From positions 186,001 to 250,000 of the forward strand of contig CAJXOG010000003.1 of NCBI GenBank assembly GCA_913057775.1: a DNA stretch of 64,000 nucleotides, written 5' to 3'. Made by a program: the position numbers and the translations under genes. The notes under the pieces are model-generated. The model was given only the letters and a program-made list of their open reading frames with translations. It ran no database searches and was not told the DNA's origin. Source of the DNA: an uncultured Fodinibius sp. Its GTDB lineage: Bacteria > Bacteroidota > Rhodothermia > Balneolales > Balneolaceae. Shown in pieces: positions 6,250 through 28,924 of this stretch. Within the stretch, counting starts at the first letter, position 1; every line of letters begins with the position of its first letter.

Positions 6250-6332
6250 GCGAGAGTGGCGGAATTGGTAGACGCGCTAGATTTAGGATCTAGTGCCTTT
6301 AAGGCGTGGGGGTTCGAGTCCCCCCTCTCGTA
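6250..6332 (+). tRNA. tRNA-Leu (anticodon UAG)
   Basis: A class II tRNA of 83 nt. The acceptor stem GCGAGAG (6250-6256) pairs with CTCTCGT (6325-6331), ending in a G-U pair. The D-loop region is GGCGGAATTGGTAGACGCG. The anticodon stem CTAGA/TCTAG encloses the loop TTTAGGA, giving anticodon TAG for Leu. A short variable arm (TGCCTTTAAGGCGT) follows. The T-arm is GGGGGTTCGAGTCCCCC. The discriminator is A, and CCA is not encoded. It stands alone, 55 bp upstream of tig. Confidence 0.96.
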
Positions 6333-6387
6333 CATATATCTTTTATCACTTTTACCGTTCTAATAAAATACTATTTGGAGTAGTCTT

Positions 6388-25743: not shown

Positions 25744-26070
25744 CTAATTAACTTCTTTAATCTTATAAACCGTTTCTCCTTCTTTCTTCATGCCATACTC
25801 TTCGCGGGCAATGCGTTCCAGCAGAAAAGGATCGGTTTCAAGGTTTTCGATTTTCTGCTTAAGGACTTCGGTTTCGCTCTTTAGTTGTTCCTTTTTTTCT
25901 TTGAGCTCGGCTTTCTGCTGGTTGAGTTCAATACGTGCCCAGATGCTATAGGTGTCGATAAAGGTAAACCATACCACAATAATACCGCCCAGAATAAGGG
26001 CCAGAAAAGATTTGCGCCACCGCAAGGGATTTAATAATTGGTAATTCATCAGCGAAGTTGCTTTAAGCAA
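25744..26070 (-). CDS. Septum formation initiator family protein (FtsB/DivIC-like)
   Basis: This 108-residue bitopic protein has a short cytosolic N-terminus, one membrane helix (about 21-43) and an extracytoplasmic leucine-zipper-like coiled coil (about 48-82; QQKAELKEKKEQLKSETEVL). A conserved C-terminal motif ends it: FLLERIAREEYGMKKEGE. This is the FtsB/DivIC plan; such proteins bridge FtsL and FtsQ in the divisome. It is not adjacent to other division genes. The next gene on its upstream side runs in the other direction. Confidence 0.9.
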   Translation of the reverse strand: MLKATSLMNYQLLNPLRWRKSFLALILGGIIVVWFTFIDTYSIWARIELNQQKAELKEKKEQLKSETEVLKQKIENLETDPFLLERIAREEYGMKKEGETVYKIKEVN

Positions 26071-26128: not shown

Positions 26129-26630
26129 ATGAAGGGCAGGTTTTTTCTAATCTGCGGATCCTTATTTTTGTTGCCATTCTATTTGCAGGCAAAAGTGGCT
26201 GTACAGGATAGCAGTTCGACTGAGTGGATCAAGATATACTTTAATCAGCCTGCTGATTATTCAGTTGCATTGCCCGGGAATATGAGCAAAAGTAACGCCG
26301 ATCTAATTGGTTCGCTGGAATCGCTTATGAAGGAGGCAAAAAAACAGTGTGGATTTGGCTATTTACGATTTGTAGCATCCCCGTATTGGTAAGGCCTTGG
26401 CAGCGGCAACCGAGTGGGGCGTGCGGGTTAGAGTGGTGACGGATAATTATAACCGAACCGATGCAGCGTTATTGGAGTTGTTGCCAGGCATGGGTCCTGC
26501 TTATTCTCAGCGAATTGTTAAGTACAGGAAACGTAATGGGCGGTTTACTGCTATCGAGCAGCTCGAAAATATCAGGGGTATTGGTCCCAAGACTATGGAT
26601 AAGCTGCGTCCCAACGTAATTGTGGAGTAG
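26129..26630 (+). pseudogene. Decayed PLD-like nuclease/hydrolase with helix-hairpin-helix C-terminus
   Basis: The remnant starts with a signal-like N-terminus (MKGRFFLICGSLFLLP...) and a PLD-like beginning up to EAKK. A 7-A run at 26338-26344 shifts the frame. With six A it would read on as K-N-S-V-D-L-A-I-Y-D-L, then a TAG at 26373, then HPRIGKALAAATEWGVRVRV and VTDNYNRTD. This is the start of a phospholipase-D-like domain. The sequence then jumps to LLELLPGMGPAYSQRIVKYR, a helix-hairpin-helix tail with a GIGPKTMDKLRP hairpin. The HKD active-site parts are therefore deleted. Three independent lesions (insertion, nonsense, internal deletion) make it non-functional. The HhH part alone (from 26397) may still be translatable. 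Confidence 0.85.
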
Positions 26631-26733: not shown

Positions 26734-27660
26734 ATGAATGAATCTATTGATGCCTTGCGCTTGAATTTGGGTGAGGGCGGACTGCTGGTGATGAATATAT
26801 CACTGGCTATAATTATGTTCGGTGTGGCGCTGGAGTTGTCGATTAATGATTTCAAACGCGTTGTTAAAGATCCCAAATCAACCATAGTAGGTATCTTGTC
26901 GCAGTTTTTATTCCTGCCGGCGATAACCTTTCTGCTTGTGTTCTTTTTTGAACCACATCCGAGTATGGCATTGGGGATGTTCATGGTCGCGGCCTGTCCG
27001 GGTGGAAATGTGTCCAACTTCTTTTCGTTGCTGGCCAAAGGCAATGCCGCATTGTCGGTAAGCATGACGGCTATTGTAACTACTTCGGCCATTATTATGA
27101 CTCCCTTTAACTTTACGCTCTGGGCCAGCTTGTATGAACCTACGAGCATCATATTGAAGGATATCCATATCAATTTGTGGGAGGTTTTTAAGATAATCGG
27201 CTTGATCTTGGGTATCCCTCTAATTTTGGGGATGAGCGTTCGCCATTATAGAGAAAAGATAGCCCAAAAAATTTCGAGCTGGATTAAGGGATTTGGAATC
27301 GTCTTTTTTGCGGGATTTGTGCTCGTAGCTTTTGGTATGAATTTTAAAAATTTCCTGAGCTATGTCCATTTGGTCATTGGACTTGTATTTTTCCACAATG
27401 CTTTTGCCCTTTCGGGCGGATATGCGCTGGCATCACTATTTAATCTGCCCTATAAAGATCGAAAATCTATTGCTATTGAAACCGGTATACAAAATTCCGG
27501 ACTGGGACTGCTGCTCATTTTCAACTTTTTTGAAGGATTGGGAGGTATGGCCCTTGTTGCCGCCTGGTGGGGCATTTGGCATATTGTCACCGGCCTGGGA
27601 ATCGGATGGTATTGGTCGATAGGAAAATCAGCTTTACAACAAGTATTTAGCAATGCGTAA
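26734..27660 (+). CDS. Bile acid:sodium symporter family (BASS) transporter
   Basis: This 308-residue membrane protein has about nine hydrophobic segments. It has the BASS signatures ACPGGNVSNFFSLLAKGNAALSVSMTA (read in pieces, about 89-115) and IAIETGIQNSGLGLLL near 246-261, whose polar residues form the sodium-binding crossover. Despite the name, bacterial members carry diverse organic anions such as pantoate or keto acids. The substrate is unknown here. Its last 8 bp overlap the acyltransferase gene, so both should be cotranscribed. It lies 103 bp after the pseudogene. Confidence 0.9.
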   Translation: MNESIDALRLNLGEGGLLVMNISLAIIMFGVALELSINDFKRVVKDPKSTIVGILSQFLFLPAITFLLVFFFEPHPSMALGMFMVAACPGGNVSNFFSLLAKGNAALSVSMTAIVTTSAIIMTPFNFTLWASLYEPTSIILKDIHINLWEVFKIIGLILGIPLILGMSVRHYREKIAQKISSWIKGFGIVFFAGFVLVAFGMNFKNFLSYVHLVIGLVFFHNAFALSGGYALASLFNLPYKDRKSIAIETGIQNSGLGLLLIFNFFEGLGGMALVAAWWGIWHIVTGLGIGWYWSIGKSALQQVFSNA

Positions 27661-28924
27661 GAATTATCTCTGGTATCAATTTTTCAGGTATGGCATTATT
27701 CGTCCGGCATTAAACCTTTTTTATTCAGATATAAAGGTGATTGGAAGGAAGTATGTGCCGGAAAATAAACCGGTCATGTTTATAGGCAATCATCAGAATT
27801 CTTTTCTGGATGCGTTGCATATCGTTAATAATACGAGACATTTTGTTCATTTTTTGACCCGCGCCGAGGCCTATGGCAATCCCTTGTTAGATCGTTTTTT
27901 CTATTCGTTGAACATGCTTCCGGTGTATCGAGCAAGAGATGGTTTTGGAACTATAAAACGCAATGAGCAGATTTTTGAAGATTGTTATGAGCGCCTTGCT
28001 GAGGACGATGCGCTGCTGGTGTTTGCTGAGGCAAGCCATGTTATGGAGCGGCGAATACGTCCGCTTAGCAAAGGATTTACCCGAATCGTATTCGGCGCGG
28101 AAGAGAAATATAATTGGGATTTGGATCTGCAAATTGTACCTGTTGGCATCAGTTATGGAAACCACCGGAAGTCGAGGACGCCTGTGCGCATAGAGTTTGG
28201 AGAGGCGGTTCCGGCTTTGCAATACAAAGAGCAATATCGGAATGATGAACGAGAGGCGGCCCATCAGTTGAAGATGGAGGTTGCCGATCGTCTGAAAAAT
28301 CTGACGCTGCATATCCCCAACAAGAAACACTATGCTTTATACCAATTAATGCTGGATGAGCTGGAGTCGAATAGACAAGAGCTGTTAGATCCCGAACTGG
28401 TGAATCGTCGCGCAAAAACGATTAGCAATCAGCTAAATGGTCCGCTTGTCGAGGAATCGGAATTTTTGCTGGAAAAAGCAAATCAACATGATATCACTGT
28501 TCAGGATTTGACAAACCCCGTTTCGGTTGGTTTGAAGGATGTAGTGCTGAGTCCTCTTTATGCTTTTTCAATGATTAACAATGTGCTGCCTTATCAGCTT
28601 GTACGGTGGCTCGTGAACAGTTATTTGGAAGACGAAGCCTTTGAGGCTTCTGTAAAGTTTTTGGTGGGACTAATGTTGCCGTTCTATTACTTGGTTATTG
28701 CTCTTATCTTGTTTATTGCGGGATTGGAAATGCCATGGATAGCGGGATATATTTTGGGAAGCCTGGCAACTGCTCCTTTATTTGTGCGTGGCAAAGACCT
28801 GTTGGTCTCCAAATTGTTTAGTAAAAAGAAGCGTTCAACGCTATTAGATAATGAGAAATTTGATGAGGAATTGGAGAAGTTTAAAAGCTTGAGGTCCCAA
28901 CTATTTGGTCAACAGGAAGATTGA
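27653..28924 (+). CDS. PlsC-like 1-acylglycerol-3-phosphate acyltransferase family protein, extended
   Basis: This 423-residue protein has an LPLAT/PlsC domain in its first half. The acyltransferase box NHQNSFLD (about 46-53) gives the H-x4-D catalytic pair His47/Asp53. The second motif is VFAEASHVMERRIRPLSKGF. The second half adds a helical region, two or three membrane helices (about 330-385) and a charged C-terminal tail. This extension is longer than classical PlsC (about 245 residues) and resembles membrane-bound Bacteroidota homologues. Its ATG overlaps the end of the transporter by 8 bp. The acyl acceptor is not determined. Confidence 0.88.
   Translation: MRKNYLWYQFFRYGIIRPALNLFYSDIKVIGRKYVPENKPVMFIGNHQNSFLDALHIVNNTRHFVHFLTRAEAYGNPLLDRFFYSLNMLPVYRARDGFGTIKRNEQIFEDCYERLAEDDALLVFAEASHVMERRIRPLSKGFTRIVFGAEEKYNWDLDLQIVPVGISYGNHRKSRTPVRIEFGEAVPALQYKEQYRNDEREAAHQLKMEVADRLKNLTLHIPNKKHYALYQLMLDELESNRQELLDPELVNRRAKTISNQLNGPLVEESEFLLEKANQHDITVQDLTNPVSVGLKDVVLSPLYAFSMINNVLPYQLVRWLVNSYLEDEAFEASVKFLVGLMLPFYYLVIALILFIAGLEMPWIAGYILGSLATAPLFVRGKDLLVSKLFSKKKRSTLLDNEKFDEELEKFKSLRSQLFGQQED

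Follow-up and report, generated by a model that had tools for sequence, protein, structure and literature searches.

The described systems closest to the locus studied here include salt-tolerant DNases that carry helix-hairpin-helix (HhH) tails. In the available excerpts of one report, fusions of DNaseI-family enzymes to HhH or lamin-tail domains are said to be restricted to halophilic or halotolerant species, and the HhH domain is described as conferring resistance to salt (PMC4486849). According to the accessible sections of a second study, HhH tails raise the salt tolerance of DNaseI, strongly so when they come from a halotolerant DNase; with the B. subtilis ComEA tail, DNaseI benefited at low salt only (PMC4777378) and, as a consequence, not every tail of this kind gives activity at high salt. 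In addition, a halophile has been reported, in the available portion of the paper, to use extracellular DNA as a phosphorus source (PMC3929857). Among the best matches listed in a search of open-licence papers, there was none on a protein combining phospholipase D (PLD), staphylococcal nuclease-like (SNase) and HhH domains; the nearest was a figure legend, in the accessible part of PMC4777378, that includes PLDc_SF among the domains found in proteins with ComEA-like HhH domains. As far as the literature searched can tell, the intact PLD-SNase-HhH family is uncharacterised.

The window (the whole stretch of 64,000 nucleotides of Fodinibius DNA that was analysed, G000:C3:186001-250000) holds a broken member of this family at 26129-26630 of the forward strand. 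Reading of the sequence and alignment with relatives identified it as a decayed copy of a gene for an apparently exported PLD-SNase-HhH protein, and it is almost certainly the pseudogene of a protein of roughly 650 aa. The coordinates of its parts and of the neighbouring genes are given in Table 1.

Table 1. Parts of the broken gene and its neighbours in the window.
Feature	Position	Strand	Evidence
ftsB/divIC (PF04977), divergent neighbour and synteny anchor	25744..26070	-	Pfam, synteny
Surviving head in the ATG frame: signal-peptide-like N-terminus and start of first PLD half	26129..26337	+	Profile positions 4-74
A7 run with one surplus base relative to the two closest intact copies, causing a frameshift	26338..26344	+	Alignment
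Ancestral-frame segment remaining from first PLD half, upstream of first HKD motif	26346..26465	+	Profile positions 69-116
In-frame TAG of the ancestral frame	26373..26375	+	Sequence, alignment
TAA closing the shifted ATG frame (87 aa)	26390..26392	+	Sequence
Deletion junction GATGCAGC, about 1,443 nt gone	26460..26467	+	Alignment with genus orthologues
ComEA-like HhH tail with two HhH motifs, including stop codon	26468..26630	+	Pfam HHH_3
SBF gene (sodium/bile acid symporter family, PF01758), intact	26734..27660	+	Pfam, synteny
Acyltransferase gene (PF01553), intact	27653..28924	+	Pfam, synteny

The ATG frame with the hydrophobic start comprises 87 codons (26129-26392) and departs from the ancestral frame at the A7 run. 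A preliminary description of this DNA had attributed the shift to a one-base insertion in the seven-A run, and the alignment with the two closest intact copies does require one extra base at this point. The in-frame TAG that it reported was also found, at a position that is a sense codon in both of those copies. Past this TAG the ancestral frame is open across the deletion join and up to the stop at 26628-26630, with the codons for ...VTDNYNRTDA directly joined to those for ALLELLPGMGP.... When searched with a profile of intact relatives, the pseudogene was hit in three separate stretches, at model positions 4-74, 69-116 (this one containing stops) and 594-649. The match of its HhH tail to Pfam HHH_3 (65.2 bits against a cut-off of 27, E 5.8e-18) cannot be due to chance. 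The TTG-started frame of 77 codons that had been noted exists as well (26397-26630) and includes this tail.

The internal deletion said to join VTDNYNRTD to the HhH tail was borne out by comparison with the genus orthologues, in 7/7 of which the two places meeting at the junction stand 1,443 nt (481 codons) apart; the deletion is thus in frame. The codons at both places specify Asp in six orthologues, and in the remaining one Gly is found at the second place. According to alignment and profile, both HKD motifs are absent from the pseudogene and fall in the deleted stretch. Going beyond the preliminary description, the deletion also took the whole SNase-like domain, which could not be inferred from the remnant, and PININTA, the conserved lead-in of the HhH region. 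P585, N589 and A591 of this lead-in are invariant in 44/44 family members (set A2, i.e., 44 of the 48 family loci, leaving out L072, a near copy of L070, the interrupted L080, and L095, L098 (contig-end cut); set A3 comprised 42 of those 44, L068 and L090 being left out). Since the lead-in has been deleted, the tail of the remnant is an incomplete HhH unit. The junction GATGCAGC is identical over 8 bases to the left place of L036 and, if one internal mismatch is allowed, extends into the right place as found in L035; short similar words (GATGC-GC) are present at both deletion ends in relatives. The matches to L036 and L035 fit a deletion between short similar words, which could have occurred through recombination or slippage.

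The three lesions are carried by one genome only, and the one in the A7 run could by itself be a sequencing error. That one of the three sits in a homopolymer is the point in favour of regarding all of them as an assembly or sequencing artefact, an explanation that we consider scarcely credible. The homopolymer lesion differs in kind from the nonsense codon and from the deletion of roughly 1.4 kb and, because neither of these depends on it, both stand whatever the status of the A7 run. In addition, the contig is 350 kb long, the source genome (3.11 Mb) has a completeness of 100% and a contamination of 0.12%, and the genes on either side are intact. Rescue of the gene through slippage at the A7 run was considered and rejected, as the TAG sits in the frame that slippage would reach. 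A single exported product holding the HhH tail is likewise excluded, since both the frameshift and the nonsense codon come after the signal peptide and before the tail.

An exported PLD-like ancestor with a C-terminal HhH domain had been proposed from the remnant, together with a search of relatives for an intact protein with a signal peptide, HKD motifs and this tail at the same locus. Such a protein, with two HKD motifs, a signal-peptide-like start and apparently exported, was found divergent from ftsB in 20/20 relatives fetched (ORFs of 638-713 aa). The alternative that relatives would contain two separate short genes, which had been named as a reason to abandon the proposal, was rejected, as all 20 loci, chosen for long matches, hold one long frame. 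The SBF gene lies downstream in 7/7 genus genomes having the family gene, and the acyltransferase gene was matched in the fetched stretch of four of those seven. ftsB adjoins the family gene at 41 of the 48 named loci (L055-L102). The loci lacking an adjoining ftsB (L087, L089, L091-L093, L096 and L098, the last starting too near a contig end for this test) are all labelled Crocinitomicaceae or Flavobacteriales. Several hosts of the family gene have names or sources pointing to saline places, and the congeners include Aliifodinibius salipaludis WN023 and Fodinibius halophilus 2W32. The sole RNA gene found in the window with Rfam (gathering threshold) or ARAGORN was a tRNA-Leu (tag anticodon) at 6250-6333.

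The intact proteins consist of a signal-peptide-like start, two PLD/HKD halves, an SNase-like domain and a ComEA-type HhH region, in this order. Pfam analysis of five of them gave two PLDc_2 stretches, SNase and HHH_3 over cut-off in all cases (5/5), with 33-48.5 bits for SNase (PF00565, cut-off 21), while TIGR00426, for the ComEA HhH region, was over cut-off in one of three and slightly under it in the other two. Two HxK(x)4D...GSxN motifs per chain place these proteins in the two-HKD PLD superfamily; the H, K, D, G and N of both motifs are invariant in 44/44, and Ser179 is Ser in 39 and Thr in 5 of the same 44. As regards the central domain, the catalytic residues of SNase, which we take to be numbered Glu43, Arg35 and Arg87, were located through alignments. 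Glu is found at the position of Glu43 in 0/44 (Arg 24, Ser 18, Trp 1, Lys 1), and Arg occupies the place of Arg35 in 21/44 and that of Arg87 in 18/44, so that the residue set of an active SNase is incomplete in the intact relatives. As the HKD sets are complete and the SNase Glu is never present, the PLD part is likely the enzyme and the SNase-like part likely a binding module.

AlphaFold2 modelling of the 647-aa A. salipaludis protein gave a mean pLDDT of 88.4, and the middle part and tail folded alone reached 91.1. In the latter model, the SNase part superimposed on staphylococcal nuclease with Z 16.9 (132 aligned, rmsd 2.6) and, together with the PF00565 matches, this assigns the domain to the SNase fold. 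The full-length model contains an N-terminal helix at residues 2-21 and the intact proteins have hydrophobic starts by eye; the protein is thus apparently exported. The PLD part matched PLD3 with Z 32.7 (333 aligned, rmsd 3.3), tied with PLD4 (Z 32.3) and phospholipase D 7e0m (Z 32.4). Among PDB sequences, the nearest to the intact protein were EEPD1 (its HhH), ComEA, endonuclease 1byr, mitochondrial cardiolipin hydrolase, NucT and SNase, EEPD1 and ComEA being the closest solved sequences to the HhH tail.

Nuclease-like sequence matches, the PLD3/4-like fold, two further nucleic-acid-type domains and hosts that in several cases point to saline places led us to consider that the ancestor was probably a nuclease. 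The preliminary description had mentioned this as a possibility, and the reading is now strengthened by sequence and model, short of proof. An exported phospholipase or other phosphodiesterase, with the HhH tail as a general anchor, would be an unlikely alternative, although its support is structural as well: the best Foldseek match of the intact protein is 7e0m, titled phospholipase D (E 2.8e-19), which also ties with PLD3 by Z, and vaccinia F13, another PLD-fold protein, is close behind by Z (31.6). The tie with 7e0m leaves room for a lipid substrate. However, two more nucleic-acid-type domains are present in the same chain, the sequence profiles of the PLD part match endonuclease 1byr (Nuc), mitochondrial cardiolipin hydrolase and NucT, and PLD3 and PLD4, which are among the tied structures, were solved in complex with single-stranded DNA.

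If the ancestor was a nuclease, it might have served natural transformation, the PLD part cutting or trimming incoming DNA in the periplasm and the ComEA-like tail passing it to the uptake machine, a role of which part has been proposed for NucT. The nearness of the HhH tail to ComEA agrees with such a role, and NucT, a periplasmic PLD nuclease, is tied both to transformation, with a mild effect, and to purine salvage in the available excerpts of PMC5714352. However, ComEC was found in 12/12 genus genomes, including the source genome and the four where the family gene was not found, and the source genome has a separate and intact ComEA-like protein (184 aa, its N-terminus looking hydrophobic by eye) encoded about 29 kb away. 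Loss of the family gene does not track these competence genes, and we regard a role in transformation as improbable. The nuclease would rather have acted on extracellular DNA as follows. The two HKD halves would form one PLD3/PLD4-like active site cutting nucleic acid, the SNase-like domain, devoid of the catalytic Glu, would act as a binding module, and the HhH tail would hold the DNA and enable activity at high salt, an effect shown for a halotolerant DNase that bears such a tail. The extracellular DNA would be broken down for phosphate, nucleotides or carbon.

The distribution of the family was studied first in 58 genomes (own included), which were searched with the HhH tail and then with the profile of intact relatives. 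In the order as a whole, 54 of 128 genomes have a match at E 1e-250 or better; these include G079, with an internal TAG, and G057, whose match is partial near a contig start. Beyond the 54, G115 has two partial pieces on two contigs. L080, apparently the locus G079:C162:2625-4553, is interrupted by one internal TAG and otherwise full length (longest ORF 371 aa), and may represent either genuine early decay or an error in the MAG.

Of the 12 genomes of the genus, seven have an intact gene and the source genome (G000) the broken one, while none was found in four (G001, G006, G008 and G011). In these four, the search gave no family match; ftsB is followed by an ORF resembling, by eye, the UPF0102 gene of the window, with no PLD gene between the two, and no SBF or acyltransferase match was detected within the fetched 5.1-5.2 kb. 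Remnants were searched for in the ftsB neighbourhoods of 15 of 21 other genomes (only 1.7 kb, cut by the contig end, in G024), and tblastn with the intact proteins gave weak matches only. A candidate in G030 (E 0.006) was discarded, as it falls in an unrelated open frame; the matches in G006 (E 0.012) and G001 (E 0.49) are over 3 kb away from ftsB, that in G017 (E 0.61) falls within ftsB, and that in G014 (E 0.17) covers 23 residues. Nevertheless, immediately past ftsB the G014 sequence can be aligned to the region where the gene starts in the intact locus of its congener G032 (score 56, best of 200 shuffles 36), and it aligns with this locus again from 6 bases past the gene stop (score 284, best of 200 shuffles 30). 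Since both flanks align and about 160 bases are left between them (L163, G014:C5:560900-566000), the gene was lost in place. Judged from these alignments, G014, which belongs to another genus, is an independent second loss in place, and it strengthens the case for repeated loss.

Replacement of the lost enzyme by other PLD proteins was also considered. Open frames of 389-404 aa with PLDc_2 are present in G001, G006, G008, G011 and G003, and G000 alone of the 12 genus genomes has no PLDc_2 match over the Pfam cut-off, its one sub-threshold match being in a 1,082-aa frame. The idea was rejected, as two of the five frames, when read, look cytosolic and of what is presumably the cardiolipin-synthase type. 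A separate PLD group of about 1,020-1,110 aa (L118, L121, L123, L125, L131, L133) occurs in Balneolales and other lineages; in L121, the one member scanned, DUF5689 and a Por_Secre_tail domain (type IX secretion) were identified.

When 394 genomes sampled from the phylum were searched, 32 had a match at E 1e-100 and every one of these belongs to the same order, which indicates that family members are rare in Flavobacteriales. In a tree of 45 of the 48 family loci plus two Bacillaceae rows, the copies without ftsB other than L098, six of the seven, are placed within Balneolales (100/99) and have L084 as their sister. This nesting of Crocinitomicaceae/Flavobacteriales copies suggests a horizontal transfer of the gene from Balneolales to Flavobacteriales.

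To what extent the remnant has decayed was evaluated in three ways. Over the remaining codons, comparison of the pseudogene with the two nearest intact copies gave dN/dS values of 0.116 and 0.127, the ratio between these two copies being 0.106; with a third copy as reference it was 0.117 for the pseudogene and 0.099 and 0.058 for the intact ones, several dS values in these comparisons being saturated. The nonsynonymous:synonymous counts, for which 15 sites where all three sequences differ were set aside, were 21:28 on the pseudogene branch and 11:23 and 14:25 on the intact ones, and over all segments relaxed selection gave no significant signal (21:28 vs 25:48, Fisher p 0.35). Finally, 4 of 46 conserved positions are altered over the whole remnant versus 0-2 in eight intact copies, a comparison that favours the intact copies because they helped to define the positions. 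The inactivation hence looks recent. A low dN/dS of the remnant is predicted by a recent loss but would be compatible, too, with part of the remnant still being under selection.

It could be argued that the HhH remnant is still made from the TTG at 26397 as a 77-aa DNA-binding protein and kept by selection, for its frame is open and constraint on the tail codons is visible (dN/dS 0.130-0.157 against the two nearest intact copies). However, the tail value between the two intact copies is only 0.048 (dS 2.3, saturated), and the tail branch has 9 nonsynonymous and 6 synonymous changes versus 5:11 and 5:13 on the intact branches, small numbers that give a hint that the tail alone is relaxed and that stand beside the non-significant test over all segments. 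Besides, the remnant has neither a signal peptide nor the PININTA lead-in, and the altered conserved positions, with the bias already mentioned, also speak against its maintenance. A surviving 77-aa product is hence highly improbable.

Taken as a whole, the locus is probably best explained as the pseudogene of an exported salt-tolerant nuclease that degraded extracellular DNA, was dispensable and has recently been lost; the use of extracellular DNA would be a dispensable trait that the source genome gave up recently. More tentatively, and perhaps less probably than not, the family could be an exported all-in-one device encoded next to ftsB in Balneolales, in which a two-HKD, PLD3/4-like nuclease, a dead SNase acting as DNA clamp and a ComEA-type receptor tail, joined in a single chain, would capture and process DNA from outside the cell at high salt, as food and perhaps also for uptake. 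Such a device would have passed to Crocinitomicaceae (Flavobacteriales) and been lost repeatedly, one such loss being seen under way in the window. Taken by itself, the broken gene is a case of ordinary gene decay and its value is that it points to an uncharacterised family which, in 54 of the 128 genomes of the order, couples an intact PLD active site to a degenerate SNase domain and a ComEA-like tail. The family is a possible source of salt-tolerant nuclease, and the genus, with seven intact copies, one broken copy and four genomes without the gene, provides a natural set for asking when the enzyme is dispensable.

Comparison with known systems revealed partial similarities in each case. With ComEA, which is behind EEPD1 among the best PDB sequence matches, the family has the HhH_3 tail in common; the HhH repeat region is all that they share, and in the family it is fused to enzyme domains. 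The NCBIfam comEA subfamily model was not passed by any of three intact proteins (best 67.5 bits, cut-off 152.35). Nuc and NucT are HKD nucleases like the family, NucT being extracytoplasmic, and profile matches to NucT and 1byr were obtained, but according to the accessible part of PMC5714352 they are small and have one HKD motif, unlike the two-HKD family. The NCBIfam NucT equivalog was passed by 0/3 intact proteins (best 43.4 bits, cut-off 297). To our knowledge, Nuc and NucT have no HhH tail. PLD3 and PLD4, described as exonucleases on single-stranded DNA, share the two-HKD fold with the family (Z 32.7, 333 residues aligned with PLD3) and are located outside the cytosol, as the family apparently is, but they are proteins of the animal lysosome and have 15-16% identity to the family over the aligned PLD part. 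We know of no SNase or HhH domain in PLD3 or PLD4.

Other known proteins resemble the family in how a catalytic part is combined with a putative DNA-binding one. Hvo_1477 of Haloferax volcanii, in the available portion of PMC3929857, is an SNase-type protein with a lipobox and a lamin tail that is important for the use of extracellular DNA at high salt; its thermonuclease active-site pattern is annotated, whereas the SNase-like domain of the family has no catalytic Glu and is accompanied by a PLD part. Bacilli of saline habitats have PLD proteins that are about 30% identical to the family in the PLD part and also carry an extra putative DNA-binding domain; in L103, the only one scanned, this is an N-terminal lamin tail domain (LTD) instead of HhH, and no SNase domain was found. 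This distant relative thus displays the same two-way pattern of tails on a different catalytic fold. The Bacilli proteins among L103-L134 are labelled Rossellomorea, Halobacillus, Pontibacillus, Bacillus and kin. Finally, the DNaseTA-type halotolerant DNases, as presented in the excerpts of PMC4486849 and PMC4777378, join a nuclease-type domain to a C-terminal ComEA-like (HhH)2 tail in salt-loving hosts, as the family does. They have an EEP/DNaseI fold, whereas here a PLD fold is found with an SNase-like domain in between, so that the likeness is one of architecture and habitat only. The family offers an independent test, on an unrelated catalytic fold, of whether an HhH tail permits nuclease activity at high salt.
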